NCBI GenBank assembly: GCA_944323955.1
Contig: CALUUK010000007.1
Coordinates: 62,001 to 126,000, forward strand
Direction of reading: 5' to 3'
Source of the DNA: Candidatus Gastranaerophilales bacterium
Lineage (GTDB): Bacteria > Cyanobacteriota > Vampirovibrionia > Gastranaerophilales > Gastranaerophilaceae
DNA: 64,000 bases
In this document: positions 1 through 9,384 of the stretch, in pieces
Position numbering within the stretch: the first letter of the stretch is position 1
Layout: every line of letters starts with the position of its first letter
Made by a program: the position numbers and the translations under genes
The notes under the pieces: generated by a model
The model's database searches: none
The model's input: the letters and a program-made list of their open reading frames with translations, nothing else
Told to the model about the DNA's origin: nothing

Positions 1-2416
1 CGGTGTATGAAATAAGATTTTTTATTACTTCTTCGGGAATTGTTTGAGTCGGATAAATTGCAATGGAGTCACCGGAGTGGATACCGGCTCTTTCAACGTG
101 TTCCGTAATTGCCGGAATTAATACATTTTCTCCGTCAGAAATTGCATCAAGTTCAAGTTCGGTTCCTTCAATATATTGGTCAATAAGTATAGGATGTTCG
201 TCAGAGAATTTCATTGCACTTTCAATATAAGAAAGAAGTTCATCTTTGTTATAAACAACCTGCATACCGCGGCCGCCGATTACATAAGACGGGCGAACCA
301 ATAGAGGATAGCCGATTTCTTTTGCAGCTTCAAGTGCTTCCGATTGCTTTCTGATTGCGCATCCTTTCGGCTGAGGGATATTAAGCTCTCGAAGCAGTTG
401 TTCAAAAAGTTTTCTGTCTTCTGCTATATTTATGGACTCAAGTGAAGTGCCTAGAATCTTTATCCCGCGTTCATTAAGTTTCGGCGCTAAATTAATAGCT
501 GTTTGTCCGCCGAATTGAACCATAACTCCTTCCGGATTTTCTTTCTCAATTATATTCATTATATTTTCGATATGCATAGGTTCAAAAAATAATTTATCCG
601 CAACATCAAAATCAGTTGAAAGCGTTTCGGGATTGGAGTTTACTATTAATGATTTATAATTGTTATTTCTGACCTCCCAAGCCGCATGTACGGAACAGTA
701 GTCAAACTCAATACCTTGTCCTATTCTTATAGGACCCGAACCTAATATTAATATCTTTTTGTCATTTGTATTAGCATTTGTTTCATCAACTTCATTATAG
801 GTTGAGTAATAATAAGGAGTATATGCTTTAAATTCTGCCGCACAGGTATCAACTATTTTAAATGATGCACTTATTGAATTATCATGGCGGATTTTCTCTA
901 TTTCTTCAAGCGGAAGCCGGCTGTATTTTGCGATTTCTTCATCGAGAAATCCTTTTTCTTTTGCTTCAAGATACATTTCTGCCGTTAAGGATTCGTTTTT
1001 AAGTTTATTTTCAAAATCTACAAGATTTTTAATTTTATATATAAACCATTTATCGATTTTTGTTATTTTATTTATTTCATCAATACTAATACCGCGGTTT
1101 ATTGCTTCTGCTACTCGGAAAATTCTTCTGTCATCCTGAACATGTAAAAGTGCTTTTAATTCTTCTTCGCTGCTGTCAAGATGCCTGCCTCTTAATAGAC
1201 CTGTATATTTTGATTCTATTGATGTTATAGCTTTCTTAAAAGAACTTTCAAAAGTTCTGCCTATTGCCATAACTTCTCCCGTTGCTTTCATTTTTGTTCC
1301 GAGAATTCTGTCGCCGTGTTTAAATTTATCGAACGGCCATTTCGGAATTTTTGTTACAACATAGTCGATTGCAGGTTCAAATGCTGCAACTGTTTTCTTT
1401 GTTATTGAGTTTGGAATTTCTTCAAGATTATAGCCTATGGCTATTTTTGTTGTAATTTTAGCTATAGGATAACCGGTTGCCTTTGATGCCAATGCAGAAG
1501 AACGGCTTACTCTGGGGTTTACCTCAATAACATAATAATTGCTGCTTACGGTATCAAGTGCAAATTGTACATTGCAGCCGCCTTCTATTTCAAGGGCTTT
1601 TATAATTTTTAATGCTGCATTTCTGAGCATCTGGCATTCTTTATTTGTGAGCGTTTGTGTCGGAGCTACAACAAAACTGTCGCCTGTATGTATACCAATC
1701 GGGTCTATGTTTTCCATATTACATATTGCTATAGAGGTGTTGTTTGCGTCACGTATTACTTCATATTCTATTTCTTTATAGCCTGCAATACTTTTTTCAA
1801 CAAGCACCTGAGAAATCGGGCTTAGAGAGAGACCTGTGTGAACAATATCCTCATATTCATTATAGTTATTAGCAATACCTCCGCCTGTACCTCCCAGTGT
1901 ATATGCAGGACGTACAATAATAGGGAAACCTATTTTTTGTGCGAATTTTTGAGCGTCTTCATAATTAGATACTATATCACTTTCAGGAATCGGTTCATTT
2001 ATTTCAAGCATAAGGTTTTTGAACATTTCTCTGTCTTCCGCTTTTTTTATGGATTCAATTTTTGTCCCGAGAAGTTCAACGCTGTATTTGTCAAGAATAC
2101 CGTTTTCATACAGTTTAACTGCAAGGTTTAATCCTGTTTGTCCGCCGAGTGTTGCAATAATTCCGTTCGGGCGTTCTTTATCAATTATGTACGTCAGTGA
2201 TTCCAGCGTTAAAGGTTCTATATAGACTTTGTCCGCTATATTTTCATCCGTCATAATTGTAGCGGGATTAGAGTTTACAAGAATTACTTCAATATTTTCT
2301 TCTTTTAATGCTCTGCAGGCTTGAACTCCCGCATAGTCAAATTCTGCGGCTTGCCCTATTACAATCGGGCCTGAGCCTATAACAAGAACTTTTTTAATGT
2401 TTGTATTAATCGGCAT
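1..2416 (-). CDS. carB: Carbamoyl-phosphate synthase large subunit (partial, C-terminus outside window)
   Basis: Synthesises carbamoyl phosphate from bicarbonate, ATP and ammonia channelled from the CarA glutaminase; first step of pyrimidine (and arginine) synthesis, cytoplasmic. The visible 805 codons begin MPINTNIKKV and show the two tandem ATP-grasp synthase units: the first opens with GSGPIVIGQAAEFDYAG and carries GGTGGG, and the second restarts near residue 560 with LILGSGPIRIGQGIEFDY. The family is about 1070 residues, so roughly 265 C-terminal residues, including the MGS-like allosteric domain that binds UMP in E. coli, lie beyond position 1. The start follows the stop of pyrF-carA by 14 bases with an AGAGAA Shine-Dalgarno. 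It is the last visible gene of the pyr operon. Confidence 0.96.
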   Translation of the reverse strand, partial: MPINTNIKKVLVIGSGPIVIGQAAEFDYAGVQACRALKEENIEVILVNSNPATIMTDENIADKVYIEPLTLESLTYIIDKERPNGIIATLGGQTGLNLAVKLYENGILDKYSVELLGTKIESIKKAEDREMFKNLMLEINEPIPESDIVSNYEDAQKFAQKIGFPIIVRPAYTLGGTGGGIANNYNEYEDIVHTGLSLSPISQVLVEKSIAGYKEIEYEVIRDANNTSIAICNMENIDPIGIHTGDSFVVAPTQTLTNKECQMLRNAALKIIKALEIEGGCNVQFALDTVSSNYYVIEVNPRVSRSSALASKATGYPIAKITTKIAIGYNLEEIPNSITKKTVAAFEPAIDYVVTKIPKWPFDKFKHGDRILGTKMKATGEVMAIGRTFESSFKKAITSIESKYTGLLRGRHLDSSEEELKALLHVQDDRRIFRVAEAINRGISIDEINKITKIDKWFIYKIKNLVDFENKLKNESLTAEMYLEAKEKGFLDEEIAKYSRLPLEEIEKIRHDNSISASFKIVDTCAAEFKAYTPYYYSTYNEVDETNANTNDKKILILGSGPIRIGQGIEFDYCSVHAAWEVRNNNYKSLIVNSNPETLSTDFDVADKLFFEPMHIENIMNIIEKENPEGVMVQFGGQTAINLAPKLNERGIKILGTSLESINIAEDRKLFEQLLRELNIPQPKGCAIRKQSEALEAAKEIGYPLLVRPSYVIGGRGMQVVYNKDELLSYIESAMKFSDEHPILIDQYIEGTELELDAISDGENVLIPAITEHVERAGIHSGDSIAIYPTQTIPEEVIKNLISYT

Positions 2417-2430
2417 AATTTATTCTCTTT

Positions 2431-4266
2431 CTATACTTTAAGCAATTTATCTTTTTCGGTTTCTTCTATCCATCGGGTCATTATTTTATTGGCATCATAC
2501 GGGCCTGCCGTTAGTTCAGGATGGAATTGTACAGTTTTCACTTTGTATTCATCACAGCTTATACCTTCAATCGTATTATCATTGAGATTTATGTATGTTG
2601 TTTTAATATTTGCGGGCAGTGATTCAATATCTACGGCATAACTGTGGTTTTGTGCGGTTACAAAAATTTCTTTTGTTTGTGTGTTTTGTATCGGGTGGTT
2701 ACCGCCTCTGTGACCGTATTTTAGTTTAAATGTCTTTGCTCCGAGTGCGAGTGATATAATTTGATGTCCCAGGCAAATACCAAACAATCTGACTTTTCCG
2801 AGAAGTTCTTTTGCTGTTTTTATTGTTTTAACGGCATTTTCGGGATTGCCGGGACCGTTGGATATTAAAACTGCGTCAAAATTATCTTTTAATATCTCCT
2901 CAGCGCTGACATCGGCAGGGAATACTGTTATATTACAATTAAGGTTTTTAAAGTTTTCAAGGATGCTGTTTTTTATTCCCATATCTATTATTGCAAGATT
3001 TATACCGGAGCCTGCTATTTTGAATGTTTTATAAGTTGTAACATCAAGTGTTATATCCTTGCTTATTTTATATTCAAGCATTTTTTCTTTCATTTCCTGC
3101 GTTAATTCTTCTGTTGTAAGAACACAGTTCATAGCGCCGTTATTTCTTATTATTTGTGTTAAATATCTTGTATCAATACCTTTAAGTGCAATAATGTTAT
3201 TTTGTTTTAAATAGTCGGTCAATGAAAGGCAGCTTTTATAGTGAGATTCATGCTCGCACATATTTTTTACAATAAGCCCTTTTGCATGAATTTTACCGCT
3301 TTCAAAATCATCTCTGTTTATTCCGTAGTTTCCGATTTCAGGATATGTCATTACAATTGTTTGTCCCGCATAAGATGGATCTGTCAGAATTTCCTGATAA
3401 CCAACCATTGAGGTGTTAAATACAATTTCTCCGTAAGAAGTGCCTTCCGCACCAATTGATTCACCTTCAAAAATCATACCGTTTTCAAGTACTAATTTCC
3501 CTTTTGATACGGCGTATGATTTGTTTTTTGTCAAAAGAGTATTTTCTATCTCTTCATGTATCATTTGAATTGCTTTAATTCTATCTTCTGCCGAGGTAAC
3601 AGCTCTTCCTATAACAAGATAATCGGCACCTTCTTTTATTGCTCTGCCGGGAGTTGCCAACCTTTTCTGGTCATTTTTATTTGACCAATCGGGTCTGATT
3701 CCGGGGCAAAGCACCTTAAAATCCTTTCCGCATATTTGTTTTATTTTTTTAGCTTCCCATACACTTGCAACAACACCGTCAAGTCCTGCCCGTTTTGCTG
3801 CAAGAGCTAAATTTAGTGCATATTCGTCAGGATTATATGGTACTTTTAGTTCGGTTTTTAAAGTTTCTGCACTTATACTTGTAAGAACGGTAACCCCCAG
3901 AATGGTAGGATTATCTCTTCCGAGTTCTTTTGCGGTTTTTCTTGCCGCTTCGCTTGCAGCACGCATCATTTCTTCGCCGCCCGTCGTGTGTACGTTGAAA
4001 AATGTTGCGCCGTTTCTTATAACATTTTCTGATGCTTTTGCAACAGTATTCGGAATATCATGAAGTTTTATATCAAAGAAATATTTTACATTTCTTTCAT
4101 TCATAAAATTAAGTATTTCAAGTCCGTTGCCCGTAAAAAGCTGCAATCCGACTTTAAATACTCCGACGTAATCACTCAGCTCTGTTATTAATAATTTTGC
4201 CTGTTCTATGTCATCCACATCAAGTGCAAGTACTATCTTTTCTTTTATTTCGGGTTTTATCTGCAT
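2431..4266 (-). CDS. pyrF-carA: Fused orotidine-5'-phosphate decarboxylase / carbamoyl-phosphate synthase small subunit (PyrF-CarA)
   Basis: One 611-residue reading frame joins the last and first enzymes of UMP synthesis. Residues 1-245 are OMP decarboxylase: VLALDVDD at the first strand, the catalytic Asp65-x-Lys67-x-x-Asp70 array in FFDIKLHD, and the phosphate-loop segment VIGRAVTSA near 218. Residues 252-611 are a full-length CarA: the N-terminal small-subunit domain followed by a class I glutamine amidotransferase with nucleophile Cys498 in GICLGHQ and His582/Glu584 in FHPEL. Only about 10 residues link them, both active sites are intact and I see no frameshift, so this is a genuine fusion. 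The gene sits between pyrC and carB in the pyr operon, so its CarA half is next to its usual CarB partner gene. Confidence 0.95.
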   Translation of the reverse strand: MQIKPEIKEKIVLALDVDDIEQAKLLITELSDYVGVFKVGLQLFTGNGLEILNFMNERNVKYFFDIKLHDIPNTVAKASENVIRNGATFFNVHTTGGEEMMRAASEAARKTAKELGRDNPTILGVTVLTSISAETLKTELKVPYNPDEYALNLALAAKRAGLDGVVASVWEAKKIKQICGKDFKVLCPGIRPDWSNKNDQKRLATPGRAIKEGADYLVIGRAVTSAEDRIKAIQMIHEEIENTLLTKNKSYAVSKGKLVLENGMIFEGESIGAEGTSYGEIVFNTSMVGYQEILTDPSYAGQTIVMTYPEIGNYGINRDDFESGKIHAKGLIVKNMCEHESHYKSCLSLTDYLKQNNIIALKGIDTRYLTQIIRNNGAMNCVLTTEELTQEMKEKMLEYKISKDITLDVTTYKTFKIAGSGINLAIIDMGIKNSILENFKNLNCNITVFPADVSAEEILKDNFDAVLISNGPGNPENAVKTIKTAKELLGKVRLFGICLGHQIISLALGAKTFKLKYGHRGGNHPIQNTQTKEIFVTAQNHSYAVDIESLPANIKTTYINLNDNTIEGISCDEYKVKTVQFHPELTAGPYDANKIMTRWIEETEKDKLLKV

Positions 4267-4271
4267 TTTAT

Positions 4272-5546
4272 TTATCCTATATTATGTATTGTACCTTTTA
4301 TAATTGTCATCTTTACAGCTCCTTTTAATGTCATTCCATCAAACGGAGATATTCTGCATTTTGATTTAAATTTTGATGCATCAACCGTTATTTGTTCATT
4401 CGGGTCAATAACGGTTAAGTTTGCTTCTTTACCTGTTCTTATATCTCCCCTGTTTTTAAGTTTCAAAATTTTTGCAGGGTTTGAAGTTAATTTTCTTATT
4501 GCTTCCATAAGTGATAATTTCCCGTTTTGAACAAGGAAATTTATTGTTACGGATAAAGCCGTTTCAAATCCTGCAATTCCCATCGGGGCATTTTGGATGG
4601 GAAGCTGTTTCTCACGAACTGTATGAGGTGCGTGGTCCGTTGCTATTACATCAATTGTTCCGTCCTGAAGCCCTTCAATAATGGCTTGTAAATCTTCTTT
4701 TGTTCTTAACGGGGGATTTACTTTATATTTTGCATCATAATCTTTTATATCATCTTCACTCAGGCTGAAATAGTGAGGAGCTGTTTCACAGGTAACATTG
4801 AGCCCGTCTTTTTTCGCCTGTCTTATAAGTTCTACGGAGCGTTTTGTTGAAATATGCGCAAAATGATATTTCCCTTGTATTGCTCTTACTATCTCAAGTT
4901 CGCGTGCTATTGCCAAAGATTCCGTTATTGCGGGGATACCTTTTAAACCTGTTTTTGTGCTTATAATGCCTTCATTTATTACTCCTGAATTTACAAGTGA
5001 AGAATCTTCAGAATGTGAGATAATTATTTTATTATGCGAATTTATATATTTAAGTGCTTCTCTTAAAAGATGCATATTTTCAAGCGGTTTACCGTCATCG
5101 GAAAAAGCAATTGCCCCAAGAGAGATAAGTTCTGATACATTAACAATTTTTTCTCCGGATAATCCTTTTGTTACCGCACATATCGGGAAAAATCCTATTT
5201 GCGATACTTCTTTTGCTTTACTGATACAGTAAGTTAGGGTTGTTGCATTGTCTGTAACCGGATTTGTATTTGCCATCGGACAAATTGCCGTATATCCTCC
5301 GTTTATGGCGGAGGCGATACCTGTTTTTATTGTTTCTTTTGCGTTAAATCCGGGTTCCCTTAAGTGGCAGTGCATGTCTATTAATCCCGGAGTAATTACT
5401 TTACCCGTAAGGTCAATGACTTGTTCATTCGATACGGGCATTAAGTTTTTTCCGATTTCTGTAATGATTTCATCTTGTATTCTTATATCGGCAAAATCTT
5501 CAAAATTATCTATAGGGTTTATTATTTTAGCATTTTTTAAAAGCAT
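4272..5546 (-). CDS. pyrC: Dihydroorotase
   Basis: Cyclises carbamoyl aspartate to dihydroorotate, third step of UMP synthesis. The 424-residue length and motifs fit the long dihydroorotase class of the amidohydrolase fold: metal ligands His59 and His61 in DMHCHLREPG, Asp151 in AFSDDGKP where other classes have a carboxylated lysine, His178 in ISHSED, His231 and Asp304 in ATDHAPH. The Asp in place of the lysine is typical of dihydroorotases that work closely with aspartate carbamoyltransferase. The start codon directly follows the pyrB stop (TAAATG), so translation is probably coupled, and the gene ends five bases before pyrF-carA. Confidence 0.95.
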   Translation of the reverse strand: MLLKNAKIINPIDNFEDFADIRIQDEIITEIGKNLMPVSNEQVIDLTGKVITPGLIDMHCHLREPGFNAKETIKTGIASAINGGYTAICPMANTNPVTDNATTLTYCISKAKEVSQIGFFPICAVTKGLSGEKIVNVSELISLGAIAFSDDGKPLENMHLLREALKYINSHNKIIISHSEDSSLVNSGVINEGIISTKTGLKGIPAITESLAIARELEIVRAIQGKYHFAHISTKRSVELIRQAKKDGLNVTCETAPHYFSLSEDDIKDYDAKYKVNPPLRTKEDLQAIIEGLQDGTIDVIATDHAPHTVREKQLPIQNAPMGIAGFETALSVTINFLVQNGKLSLMEAIRKLTSNPAKILKLKNRGDIRTGKEANLTVIDPNEQITVDASKFKSKCRISPFDGMTLKGAVKMTIIKGTIHNIG

Positions 5547-6458
5547 TTAACCTTCACTTTCTTTTAATATGGTATTTAATATTGCCATTCTTACGAATAC
5601 TCCGTTTTGAGCCTGTTCCAATATTGTTTTCCCGACCTGATTATCAAGAAGTTCCGAAGATACCTCAATATTTCTGTTGGCGGGGCCGGGATGCATTAAA
5701 ATAACATCCTTTGCTGCATATTGTTTTAAAAGTTCCGTGTCAATTTCATAAAGTCTTTTATATTCCGATGAATCCGGATATCCTTCTTTATCGTGTCTTT
5801 CATTTTGAACTCTTAAAACCATTACGACATTAGCTCCTTCTATAGCGGTTTTAACATCATTATGGTAAGTGACGTTAAATGCGTTATGATTTTCAAATTG
5901 TAAATATGATGGAGCGCACAGATGAATATCAGCTCCGAATTTTGATAATAAACTTATATTTGATTTCGCCACGCGGCTGTGGGAAACATCTCCGACAATC
6001 GTTATTTTCTTACTCTCAACGCTGCCGATTTTTTCAAGCATTGTGTAAAAATCCAAAAGTGCCTGCGACGGATGTGCATGAGTTCCGTCGCCGCCATTTA
6101 CAAAACATATCGGATATTTCACCTGTTTCATAACGTTGTTTATTATTCCCGAAAGACAATGCCTTATGACAACTGCATTTACACCTAAAAAATATAAATT
6201 CTCAATTGTATCTTTAAGGCTTTCACCTTTTGAGAGTGATGAGTGCGGTGCATCAAAATTAATGATATTCATATTGAGCTTTTGTGCTGCTATTTCAAAA
6301 CTGCATCTTGTCCTTGTAGAATTTTCATAGAACATTAAAGAAAGGGTTTTTTTCTGAACGTCAGAATCTTTTGTTCCCTGTTTAAATTCTTTTGCAAGAT
6401 TTATAATATTTAAAATTTCTTCTTTTGAAATACTTTGAATATCAATCAGATGTTTCAT
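5547..6458 (-). CDS. pyrB: Aspartate carbamoyltransferase catalytic subunit
   Basis: Condenses carbamoyl phosphate with aspartate. The 303-residue chain has the carbamoyl-phosphate motif S47-T-R-T-R, the mobile loop lysine at residue 77 (SSLSKGES), HPSQ at 129-132 and the HPGPANR segment starting at His256. No pyrI regulatory subunit is next to it, so feedback control through PyrI is not suggested locally. Its ATG shares one base with the pyrE stop (TAATG), and pyrC follows without a gap, a layout that would favour a PyrB-PyrC assembly, which is known for this dihydroorotase class in other bacteria; here that is inference. Confidence 0.95.
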   Translation of the reverse strand: MKHLIDIQSISKEEILNIINLAKEFKQGTKDSDVQKKTLSLMFYENSTRTRCSFEIAAQKLNMNIINFDAPHSSLSKGESLKDTIENLYFLGVNAVVIRHCLSGIINNVMKQVKYPICFVNGGDGTHAHPSQALLDFYTMLEKIGSVESKKITIVGDVSHSRVAKSNISLLSKFGADIHLCAPSYLQFENHNAFNVTYHNDVKTAIEGANVVMVLRVQNERHDKEGYPDSSEYKRLYEIDTELLKQYAAKDVILMHPGPANRNIEVSSELLDNQVGKTILEQAQNGVFVRMAILNTILKESEG

Positions 6459-7036
6459 TATGCTTTTACCTTCTCTTCGCCTCTGCTGCCGGGTTTAACA
6501 AGAGGAATTCCTTCTTTGCACAACGGGCAGTTATCAGGTTCATAAACAACCGGGTCTATCTGTAATAATGATTTGATGTTATATTCTGTTTTTCCTTTTG
6601 TTCTGTCTACTATGCAGCCTACTGCAGCAACTTCAGGTTCAAATTCTTTAATTGCTTCCATTGTTTCTTTTATTGTTCTTGCCGTTGTAATAACGTCTTC
6701 AATTATAACTACTCTTTCACCTTTTTTGAGAGTATAGCCTCTTCTTAATTGCATTTCACCATCTTTTCTTTCGACAAAAAGATTGCGTTTCTTTGCATTT
6801 TTTGCGGTTTCATAACCGATAATTACCGCACCGATTGCAGGTGCAACTATTGTATCAAAATCAATATCTGAAAGTTTCTCGGCTAGTCTTTTGCCAAGTT
6901 CTGCTGTTATATCCGGATATTGATATAGTTTTGCGCACTGGAAATAAATATCCGAGTGAAGCCCCGATGTAAGGCAAAAATGCCCGTGTAAAACTCCTTC
7001 GGCTTTCTCCAGTAAATTTAATACTCCATTTTCCAT
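6458..7036 (-). CDS. pyrE: Orotate phosphoribosyltransferase
   Basis: Transfers the phosphoribosyl group of PRPP to orotate to give OMP. The 192-residue type I PRTase fold is recognisable from the FVERKDG segment, the RRGYTLKKGERV strand-turn and the PRPP loop IIEDVITTART at about 111-121. In most orotate phosphoribosyltransferases the two residues after the TT pair include Gly; here they are Ala119-Arg120, a mild deviation. The C-terminal extension has a CPLC pair (170-173) of unknown use. It is separated from pyrD by one base and overlaps pyrB by one base. I see no competing function given its place in the pyr operon. Confidence 0.94.
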   Translation of the reverse strand: MENGVLNLLEKAEGVLHGHFCLTSGLHSDIYFQCAKLYQYPDITAELGKRLAEKLSDIDFDTIVAPAIGAVIIGYETAKNAKKRNLFVERKDGEMQLRRGYTLKKGERVVIIEDVITTARTIKETMEAIKEFEPEVAAVGCIVDRTKGKTEYNIKSLLQIDPVVYEPDNCPLCKEGIPLVKPGSRGEEKVKA

Positions 7037-7037
7037 T

Positions 7038-7952
7038 TTATTTCCTCAACTTCTTTTTTAATTCTTCTAAATCTTTAAATCCGTTTTTTATAATATATTC
7101 TTCAAGTTCCCTAACTAATTTTCCCGCAATTTCAGGGTGCGTAAAATTAGCTGTCCCTACTTGAACGGCGTCAGCTCCTGCGGCAAAAAATTCCAATACA
7201 TCTTCAAGAGTTTCAATACCGCCTATTCCTATAATCGGAATATCAATAACTTTGGAAAGTCTGTATACAGCACTTATTGCAACAGGTTTTATTCCTGAGC
7301 CGGAGTATCCTCCCTGAACTATTGTTTTGTTGAATCTGCCGTTGAAATAATTAAACTTTATTGAGACTCCTTTTAAGGTATTAATTGCACTTACGGCATC
7401 CGCTCCGGCGTTTTGTGCCACAAGTCCGAGTTTTTCTATTGAAGTTACATTCGGTGTTAGTTTTACTATTAAAAAGCCCGTGAACTCTTTTCTTACCTGT
7501 GAAACAAGTTCATACAATGAATTTTCATCGGTTCCGAATTCAAGGCATCCTGCTTTTACGTTCGGGCATGATACATTCAGTTCAATGGCTTTAATTTTAT
7601 TCGTTTCACATTTTTTTGCAAGTTCAATATATTCTTCTATTGTTGAGCCTGCTATATTTATAACGAATTCTATGTTTTTTTTCTTCAAAACCGGCAATTT
7701 ATCCGTTAGAAATTTTTCTATTCCTACATTTTCAAGTCCTATTGAATTTATCATTCCGGCTTTTGTTTCTGTTATTCGGTTATGTTTGTTTCCTTCTCTG
7801 GGTTTTAGTGAGATTGCTTTTGTAACAATTGCGCCTAACGATGAAACATCAATAAAATCATCATATTCATCGTTATAGCCGTATGTTCCCGATGCGGTCA
7901 TTATCGGGTTTTTAATGTTAAATCCTTTAAAGTTTACTGAAGTTATTGCCAT
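7038..7952 (-). CDS. pyrD: Dihydroorotate dehydrogenase, class 1B catalytic subunit
   Basis: FMN enzyme oxidising dihydroorotate to orotate. At 304 residues it has the class 1 active-site cysteine (Cys129 in LNVSCPN), the conserved FMN lysine near 45 (IVTKAISLKP) and the FMN phosphate-binding run IGIGGIETLEDVLEF followed by GADAVQVGTA. The subclass is set by its neighbour: pyrK, the FAD/[2Fe-2S] electron-transfer subunit, lies immediately upstream and overlaps it by 10 bases, which fits an NAD-linked PyrD-PyrK heterotetramer. This route does not need a quinone, consistent with an anaerobic or fermentative lifestyle. Confidence 0.95.
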   Translation of the reverse strand: MAITSVNFKGFNIKNPIMTASGTYGYNDEYDDFIDVSSLGAIVTKAISLKPREGNKHNRITETKAGMINSIGLENVGIEKFLTDKLPVLKKKNIEFVINIAGSTIEEYIELAKKCETNKIKAIELNVSCPNVKAGCLEFGTDENSLYELVSQVRKEFTGFLIVKLTPNVTSIEKLGLVAQNAGADAVSAINTLKGVSIKFNYFNGRFNKTIVQGGYSGSGIKPVAISAVYRLSKVIDIPIIGIGGIETLEDVLEFFAAGADAVQVGTANFTHPEIAGKLVRELEEYIIKNGFKDLEELKKKLRK

Positions 7953-8704
7953 ACAACCTCGTTTCCTTTGAATACCGGCCCGTCTTTACAAACGGAGGCG
8001 TTAACCGTTTTTCCGTCTTTTATTACATCTATAACGCAGCCCCTGCAAACTCCTATTGAACATGCCATTACTTTTTCCATTGCAACTTGAGTTTCTATGT
8101 TATATTTAATGCCTAAATCAGCAACTGTTTTTAATACAATATGAGGACCGCAGGCATATATTATTTCAGGGTCGATTTCTTGTATAAGTTTTTCAAGATA
8201 ATCTATAATACTGCCTTTTTCTCCGATTGAACCGTCATCTGTATATATCTTATCAATATTTATTTTTTGAGGAACTTCATTTTTTGTAAGAAATCCTGCC
8301 GCAAAAGTATTTGTTATTCCGTTTTTGTCAAGTTTTTCTTTTAAATATGAAATAGGAGCAACTCCGATACCTGCTCCTATTAATAATGATTTTTTATTTT
8401 TAATGTCAAAGGAATTACCGAAAGGTCCGATTAAATCGACAATATCTCCGACTTTTAAAGACTTTATGTATTCTGTGCCTTTTCCTCTTTCTTTAAATAA
8501 AATTCCTATATTGCCGTTATTATTTGTAAAAACACTAAACGGACGTCTTAGTGTTAAACCGCCGCAGTATATTGAAACAAATTGACCCGCTTTTACTTCT
8601 ACCGGATTTTCACATTTAAGTTCAATATAGAAGGAACTTTGTGTAACTTTTTCAATAGCCGCAACTTTTGCTTTATAAATTTTTTTATTTTTTGTGTCAC
8701 TCAT
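7943..8704 (-). CDS. pyrK: Dihydroorotate dehydrogenase electron-transfer subunit
   Basis: Passes electrons from PyrD FMN to NAD through FAD and a [2Fe-2S] cluster. The 253 residues show a ferredoxin-reductase-like FAD domain with RRPFSVF at 53-59, an NAD-binding region with LLIGAGIGVAPI at 107-118, and a C-terminal cluster motif with Cys215, Cys220, Cys223 and Cys239 (C-x4-C-x2-C-x15-C). It is the first structural gene of the pyr operon. The start has an AAAGG Shine-Dalgarno and lies about 20 bases downstream of the leader hairpin, so its transcription depends on read-through of that hairpin. Confidence 0.94.
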   Translation of the reverse strand: MSDTKNKKIYKAKVAAIEKVTQSSFYIELKCENPVEVKAGQFVSIYCGGLTLRRPFSVFTNNNGNIGILFKERGKGTEYIKSLKVGDIVDLIGPFGNSFDIKNKKSLLIGAGIGVAPISYLKEKLDKNGITNTFAAGFLTKNEVPQKINIDKIYTDDGSIGEKGSIIDYLEKLIQEIDPEIIYACGPHIVLKTVADLGIKYNIETQVAMEKVMACSIGVCRGCVIDVIKDGKTVNASVCKDGPVFKGNEVVWQ

Positions 8705-8724: not shown

Positions 8725-8757
8725 AAAAAAAAAGAAAAACAAGAATGTTTTTCTTTT
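8725..8757 (-). terminator. Intrinsic terminator / attenuator in the pyr operon leader
   Basis: On the minus strand a 12-bp perfect inverted repeat (arms 8746-8757 and 8730-8741, loop TTCT) runs straight into a U-rich tract before pyrK. The stem has only two G-C pairs but the arm plus tract gives about nine consecutive U residues. The stem begins at the base after the stop codon of a 12-codon leader reading frame, so a ribosome finishing the leader peptide would cover the rising arm. Seen directly: repeat and tract. Inferred: conditional termination. Confidence 0.72.
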
Positions 8758-8796
8758 CTAAATTATATATTCAATTTTTCTAATCCAATATTTCAT
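8758..8796 (-). CDS. Candidate pyr leader peptide (12 residues)
   Basis: A short frame between the pyr promoter and the leader hairpin encodes MKYWIRKIEYII and stops with TAG one base before the hairpin stem. A GGGA Shine-Dalgarno lies eight bases upstream of its ATG. There is no run of a single regulatory amino acid, so an amino-acid attenuator is unlikely; the composition is rich in U at the RNA level, as expected if UTP-sensitive polymerase pausing sets how closely the ribosome follows (known for E. coli pyrBI). Coding status is inferred from position and ribosome-binding site only. Confidence 0.5.
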   Translation of the reverse strand: MKYWIRKIEYII

Positions 8797-8818
8797 TTTC
8801 TTTATCCCGTTTCCATGT

Positions 8819-8847
8819 ATTATGAAACTAACCGGATACAAAGTCAA
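8819..8847 (-). promoter_or_regulatory. Promoter of the pyr operon
   Basis: Minus-strand -35 TTGACT (8847-8842) and -10 CATAAT (8824-8819), each 5/6 to sigma-70 consensus, spaced by 17 bases. Transcription would start near 8812, giving a leader of about 108 bases that contains the leader peptide and the hairpin. Confidence 0.72.
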
Positions 8848-8964
8848 ATAAAAAAGAAACTATTTTACAAATAAAAACATATTATTCTTATAGCCTATCC
8901 TTGTCGGCGATTTCCTAATGTTAAATTTGTAATACTGTTTATGTGTATTATGAAAGGGAATTAT

Positions 8965-9384
8965 ATGTTTGAACATGAAAAAATAACAAAAGATGTATCC
9001 AGAGCAAAGAAGTTTTTTGAAGATATTATTTCTTTTACAATAGGTCCGTATACTTTAGATGAAATTATAGAAAAAAGAGTGAATACGATAAATATTGTTG
9101 ATGTAAGAGATTATGATAATTATACGGACGGACATATACCTTATGCAAGCCATATTCCGCATGACAGAATTGAAGAAAATGCAGAAATTCTTGATAAATC
9201 TAAAGTAACGGTTGTTTATACATATTCTGATTCTTGTCCGAGAGCTTATTATGCGGCACTTAAACTGGCGGAACACCATTATCCGAGTGTTGTTTTAAGA
9301 GGCGGATTCAGAATGTGGAAAAAATTTGATTTTGATATTACAAAATCAAGTGCGGATGATTATCCTCCTTCCGATGAAATATAA
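8965..9384 (+). CDS. Single-domain rhodanese-like protein
   Basis: A roughly 139-residue protein with a rhodanese homology domain: IVDVRDYDNYTDGHIPYASH is the first motif (CH2-like region) and VVYTYSDSCPRA then LRGGFRMW form the active-site loop and final strand. Many relatives have Cys at the loop start and a second Cys five residues later (CxxxxC); here the first position is Thr and only the second Cys remains, so sulfurtransferase activity by the usual nucleophile is uncertain. I chose ATG 8965 because AAAGGG lies six bases upstream; in-frame ATGs at 8941 and 8950 lack a ribosome-binding site. It is divergent from the pyr operon and ends at a strong terminator. Confidence 0.85.
   Translation: MFEHEKITKDVSRAKKFFEDIISFTIGPYTLDEIIEKRVNTINIVDVRDYDNYTDGHIPYASHIPHDRIEENAEILDKSKVTVVYTYSDSCPRAYYAALKLAEHHYPSVVLRGGFRMWKKFDFDITKSSADDYPPSDEI

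Follow-up and report, generated by a model that had tools for sequence, protein, structure and literature searches.

The attenuator of Escherichia coli rph-pyrE employs a full-length enzyme gene, rph, as its leader frame, which ends just before the terminator of the pyr gene, and its action depends on UTP-dependent coupling. The leader frame of E. coli pyrBI, pyrL, has 44 codons and extends past the terminator. At pyrL, 49% of the leader is U, and low UTP gives the coupled ribosome time to prevent formation of the hairpin (PMC10135430), a process for which tight coupling is needed (PMC5021804).

The locus described here precedes pyrK in a stretch of 64,000 nucleotides from a Candidatus Gastranaerophilales bacterium (contig CALUUK010000007.1), hereafter the window. 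A search of open-licence papers returned no account of an attenuator of this kind in Gastranaerophilales. Judged from its sequence, the leader is probably a transcription attenuator that is coupled to translation and governs the entire UMP operon in the manner of E. coli pyrBI, with UTP (perhaps CTP) as the nucleotide most likely read. If this is true, it would represent a regulator-free pyrimidine-sensing attenuator in Gastranaerophilales, the non-photosynthetic cyanobacterial relatives of animal guts.

The pyrK leader and the UMP operon

The original prediction placed a promoter, a 12-codon frame and a hairpin with a U tract ahead of pyrK, and the window sequence together with its fold confirms all of these parts and their positions (Table 1). 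The promoter TTGACT-17-CATAAT has 10 of 12 matches, and transcription is expected to start near 8812, which would yield a leader of about 108 nt up to the pyrK ATG at 8704. The ribosome-binding site in the window is weak (CGGGAT). Directly after the stop codon TAG of the leader frame begins a hairpin spanning 8757-8725, read in the sequence as a 5' arm AAAAGAAAAACA, a loop UUCU, a 3' arm UGUUUUUCUUUU and further U. The stem comprises 12 pairs, or 14 with the AG of the stop codon counted in, and the hairpin dominates the predicted fold of the leader (z = -2.5). A generic scan of the window was insufficient on its own, since its terminator filter omitted the hairpin and promoter-like sites occurred near the shuffled expectation.

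Table 1 Positions of the leader elements and operon genes in the window
Feature	Position	Strand	Remark
Upstream TGTAAA block	8864..8869	-	About 22-24 nt 5' of -35; UP-element-like or operator half-site
-35 hexamer TTGACT	8842..8847	-	TTGACT/TTGACA kept in relatives
-10 hexamer CATAAT	8819..8824	-	17-nt spacer to -35
Shine-Dalgarno-like CGGGAT	8804..8809	-	8-10 nt before leader ATG; AAGG/AGGG in most homologues
Leader ORF, 12 codons, MKYWIRKIEYII and stop	8758..8796	-	ATG 8796, stop TAG 8760-8758
Terminator hairpin 5' arm, purine-rich, AAAAGAAAAACA	8746..8757	-	Fold and covariation
Terminator hairpin 3' arm, U/C-rich, TGTTTTTCTTTT	8730..8741	-	Proposed pyrimidine-NTP-sensing stretch
Run of nine T	8725..8733	-	Last stem positions and U tract of predicted intrinsic terminator
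pyrK, first operon gene	7943..8704	-	Pfam DHODB_Fe-S_bind, FAD_binding_6
pyrD	7038..7952	-	Pfam DHO_dh
pyrE	6458..7036	-	Pfam Pribosyltran
pyrB	5547..6458	-	Pfam OTCace_N, OTCace
pyrC	4272..5546	-	Pfam Amidohydro_1, DHOase
pyrF-carA fusion	2431..4266	-	Pfam OMPdecase 10-235, CPSase_sm_chain 258-383, GATase 426-595
carB, extends beyond window	2..2416	-	Pfam CPSase_L_D1/D2/D3

The genes behind the leader are closely spaced or overlapping and follow one another on the minus strand in the order pyrK-pyrD-pyrE-pyrB-pyrC-(pyrF-carA)-carB. PyrF and CarA are joined in a single frame of 611 amino acids. A rhodanese-domain gene (8941-9384, plus strand) is divergent from pyrK in the window; in family f7 (L050, L051), a rhodanese-like frame with the same orientation as pyrK ends upstream of it.

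Distribution of the layout and covariation of the stem

Homologues of pyrK were sought in relatives and the DNA upstream of them was then read. The original prediction looked to related genomes for the leader ORF and hairpin upstream of pyrK, and there they were indeed found: promoter, short frame and hairpin form a conserved unit in 17 genera, 14 in the same family as the window genome and 3 in two further families. The roughly 70 leaders concerned are related by descent, and their counts do not represent independent events. Genus g1 and the families f7 (G040, G045, G048) and f6 (G044) share the succession of TTGAC-17-ATAAT or a near variant, an SD-like motif, ATG, short frame, stop, hairpin and U tract. 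The layout is also kept at loci with a different upstream gene, and promoters are more variable outside g1. An order-wide model search showed that family f1 comprises many genera, and 144 f1 genomes were then searched for pyrK, which was found in 53 of them, belonging to 15 genera. All 14 f1 genera read, g1 included, carry the layout with widely different sequences and peptides; the fifteenth, g43, is represented by one leader (G183) outside this count. At L138, a locus that the script had mis-scored, the frame MNLKTFKLRYIK with its stop and the hairpin were recognized by eye. The more distant families f2, f3 and f4 (L055-L066) possess pyrK, and the leader layout is absent from the upstream DNA read there.

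Several of the f3/f4 loci (L055-L066) share a motif like CTTGAAAA...AGTAYTTTACTRTA near the pyrK start codon, with no leader, and another control may operate at pyrK in these families. Within f1, pyrK was unmatched in 91 of the 144 sampled near-complete genomes; this suggests that many f1 genera have lost the UMP pathway or replaced pyrK. In addition, a GC-richer repeat, AAATTTTGCGTAGGGTGAAATCGAGCGAAGCGAGTGAACCCGAAGTA...GCAAAATTTAAGAC, is located just 3' of the attenuator U run, between hairpin and pyrK, in L018, L019, L020, L021, L022, L028, L032, L035 and L036. It occurs in tandem in some relatives, its longer motifs are not present in the window, and it resembles intergenic repeats of the mobile or REP-like kind.

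Compensatory changes in the stem, which had been named beforehand as a sign in favour of the attenuator, are present in an alignment of 26 leaders. Over the 13 pairs, 96.4% of the cells are paired compared to 92.3% in shuffles, while changes on both sides affect 7 of the 13 stem pairs (2.6 expected) and 17 stem cells (4.4 expected); none of 500 shuffles equalled the observed value on any of these measures. The signal is gone when the partner is shifted by 1-3 columns. Free prediction with RNAalifold on the aligned leaders recovered exactly the terminator helix and no conserved competing antiterminator or alternative helix, and an antiterminator riboswitch was rejected for want of such a helix.

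The element is furthermore specific to the pyrimidine operon. A covariance model scored the pyr leader in G000 at 75 bits and the next matches at no more than 41 bits, and the seven weaker matches read in this genome are all ordinary terminators behind long genes. Among eight weak matches read in other f1 genomes, seven are ordinary terminators or unrelated; the remaining match, L164, is itself the leader of a pyrK gene. No further regulon members rose above noise in G000; the element occurs solely before pyrK there and at the other loci checked.

Leader frame, pyrimidine-rich arm and proposed mechanism

In the 26 aligned leaders, the distance from ATG to stem falls into all three phases (9, 9 and 8 leaders). 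The leader frame nevertheless reaches the stem in every one of them, compared to 9 of 52 for the other two frames, and the same is true of 43 further leaders (43 of 43, compared to 19 of 86). As the starts in these 43 leaders were partly picked by eye, an unbiased count of any frame was also made. A frame of at least 8 codons runs to the stem in 69 of 69 leaders compared to 38% of dinucleotide shuffles, and one with an SD-like motif in 62 of 69 compared to 11%. Taking one leader per genus, an SD-preceded frame is found in 14 of 17 where 2.1 are expected, a result reached in none of 200,000 simulations. The ribosome-binding site is not recognizable in g42, g45 and g47.

Most leader frames comprise 8-21 codons. 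A kept distance between stop and stem, as originally proposed, holds in part: the stop remains near the stem across the three ATG phases, but strict spacing is not universal, with the stop lying before the stem in the L009 group (-6), L024 (-11) and some leaders of g34, g45 and g47 (as far as -10). In L028, L033 and g42, it is placed within the loop or shortly beyond the 5' arm. L025, L118 and L155 have no stop ahead of the 3' arm.

The peptide itself varies freely. In g1 its omega is 1.09 (mean 0.94 and sd 0.25 after shuffling of columns), with no sign of purifying selection, the peptides of other genera are unrelated, for example MKFTDVFHTKFVYF, MNLKTSKIKYIA and MKDKGMGS, and across genera there is neither a conserved residue or codon nor a run of regulatory codons. 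As far as the alignments indicate, the kept feature is the frame that would bring a ribosome to the hairpin, not the peptide; because the latter is unconstrained, it is the ribosome position rather than codon identity that appears to be maintained. As the peptide is not conserved, neither a specific peptide nor the sensing of a codon seems important, and codon-specific sensing is disfavoured by omega, the unrelated peptides and the lack of an antiterminator. The leader would thereby provide an example of a frame that is maintained solely for its position and whose peptide is free to diverge.

The expectation of a U-rich leader did not hold. Before the stem, the leaders average 31% U (27% in the window), which is about the composition of the window. 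U and C are concentrated instead in the 3' arm of the terminator hairpin, which is therefore the probable site of sensing. In every genus read, this arm consists almost wholly of pyrimidines; C+U make up 91% and U alone 71% of it in 66 attenuators, compared to 78% and 54% in the 41 ordinary terminators available from these loci (p ~9e-6 for C+U and ~3e-10 for U, relatedness uncorrected). However, 13 of the 41 ordinary terminators are equally pyrimidine-rich, and there could be other causes that favour a stem polarised between purines and pyrimidines.

In the proposed mechanism, RNA polymerase would start near 8812, after which a ribosome would enter the 12-codon frame and proceed to the stop codon at the foot of the terminator hairpin. 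With plentiful pyrimidine triphosphates, the 3' arm would be cleared ahead of the ribosome, the hairpin would form and transcription would end in the U run. With scarce UTP (perhaps CTP), the polymerase would slow down in the U/C-rich 3' arm and the ribosome would catch up, covering most of the 5' arm or pushing the polymerase forward, so that no hairpin forms and pyrK-carB would be transcribed. We infer UTP as the signal, as well as translation of the leader frame, termination at the hairpin and the timing of ribosome and polymerase, from the arrangement of these parts. A ribosome modelled at the stop codon covers most of the 13-nt 5' arm and leaves a mean folding energy of -1.5 compared to -16 kcal/mol, with the hairpin lost in most of the 26 leaders; most of the hairpin stays intact in the L009 group and L024. 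In most leaders, the 3' arm starts 16-22 nt past the stop codon. Since the front edge of a ribosome lies about 13 nt ahead and 14 nt are held inside the polymerase, a polymerase touched by the ribosome at the stop codon would, at this distance, sit inside the 3' arm. More tentatively, the terminator hairpin itself might be the sensor, whereby the polymerase would slow in the near-homopyrimidine 3' arm only when UTP and CTP are scarce, before the hairpin closes, and the ribosome at its foot would win. If true, pause site and terminator would be merged in a compact attenuator only about 90 nt long.

A translation-gated attenuator could also read something other than UTP, such as the general capacity for translation, the rate of growth or the charging of tRNAs for common residues (Lys, Ile, Tyr), with read-through needing a ribosome at the stop at any level of UTP. 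This would fit the conservation of frame and stop position without upstream U-richness, and Lys, Ile and Tyr are indeed frequent in many leader peptides. It is the most serious of the alternatives, though we consider it unlikely, as the genera have no residue or codon in common, an antiterminator for codon sensing is lacking, and the element is confined to the pyrimidine operon.

Control by a protein, either through PyrR or another attenuation protein or through a DNA-binding regulator with the hairpin as a passive damper, is a poorer candidate still. In its favour is an upstream element conserved at a fixed promoter distance in most genera. The TGTAAA block, 22-24 nt 5' of -35, has the same offset in nearly all g1 leaders and in the f6/f7 loci, and the whole pattern of this upstream element has two occurrences in G000. 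In g34, g35 and g38, a TGTWA-N7-TTACA inverted repeat is present at a similar place, near -50 (upstream of L128, L134, L136 and L142). Block and repeat could be a UP element or the operator of a regulator, to which a protein near -58..-42 would bind. Such control leaves unexplained, however, that the frame always reaches the hairpin. Moreover, the best match to the PyrR model, in a genome that is 99% complete, scores 31.4 bits against a cut-off of 138 and reads by sequence as a hypoxanthine phosphoribosyltransferase, and a search of Rfam 15 (gathering threshold and E <= 10) returned no relevant family and no PyrR element. The original prediction had likewise seen neither gene nor element, and PyrR control was rejected on both counts. 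A DNA-binding regulator at the -58..-42 element may still act alongside attenuation. UTP-dependent start-site slippage is not supported, the start regions being A-rich with no T run on inspection.

An arrest-peptide switch, in which the emerging leader peptide would halt the ribosome on sensing a pyrimidine compound, is very improbable: conservation of the block AAAATTGAATATA (peptide KIEY) is good within g1, but there is no selection on the amino acids (omega about 1.1) and the peptides of other genera are unrelated. Just as improbable is the absence of any regulation, with the hairpin ending stray transcripts and the frame arising by chance in AT-rich DNA, because the 38% of shuffled leaders with a frame to the stem stand against 69 of 69 observed (62 of 69 against 11% when SD-preceded), and the hairpin is placed between the pyr promoter and pyrK, where in the window there is no stray transcript to stop because the upstream gene is divergent.

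Translation-coupled attenuation, the preferred reading, would make transcription-translation coupling directly testable in Gastranaerophilales, because the attenuator needs a ribosome close behind RNA polymerase; we know of no data on such coupling in these bacteria.

Comparison with known attenuators

PyrR attenuation (Bacillus; Rfam PyrR element) likewise acts at a terminator ahead of a pyr operon with comparable genes, but no PyrR protein, PyrR-binding element or antiterminator was found at the locus described here. Amino-acid leader-peptide attenuators of the trp and his type also combine a short leader ORF with a terminator, whereas the pyrK leader has no run of regulatory codons and no mutually exclusive antiterminator. 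The rph-pyrE attenuator shares a frame ending just before a terminator ahead of a pyr gene; here this frame is tiny and unconstrained.

The closest likeness is to pyrBI and its leader pyrL. The element works, by analogy, like pyrBI rather than being a demonstrated member of its class, as the upstream leader is not U-rich (31% compared to 49% U) and the stretch rich in pyrimidines forms the terminator's 3' arm. Furthermore, the frame ends at the foot of the hairpin after 8-21 codons in most leaders, and the element stands before all of the UMP genes, carAB among them, with no sequence homology between the two systems. Both nevertheless consist of a promoter, a short leader frame (here putatively translated) and a predicted intrinsic terminator before pyrimidine genes, and both would use a coupled ribosome to prevent termination, with neither codon-specific sensing nor a regulator protein. 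Leaders without a stop before the 3' arm (L025, L118, L155) recall pyrL, the frame of which extends past the terminator.
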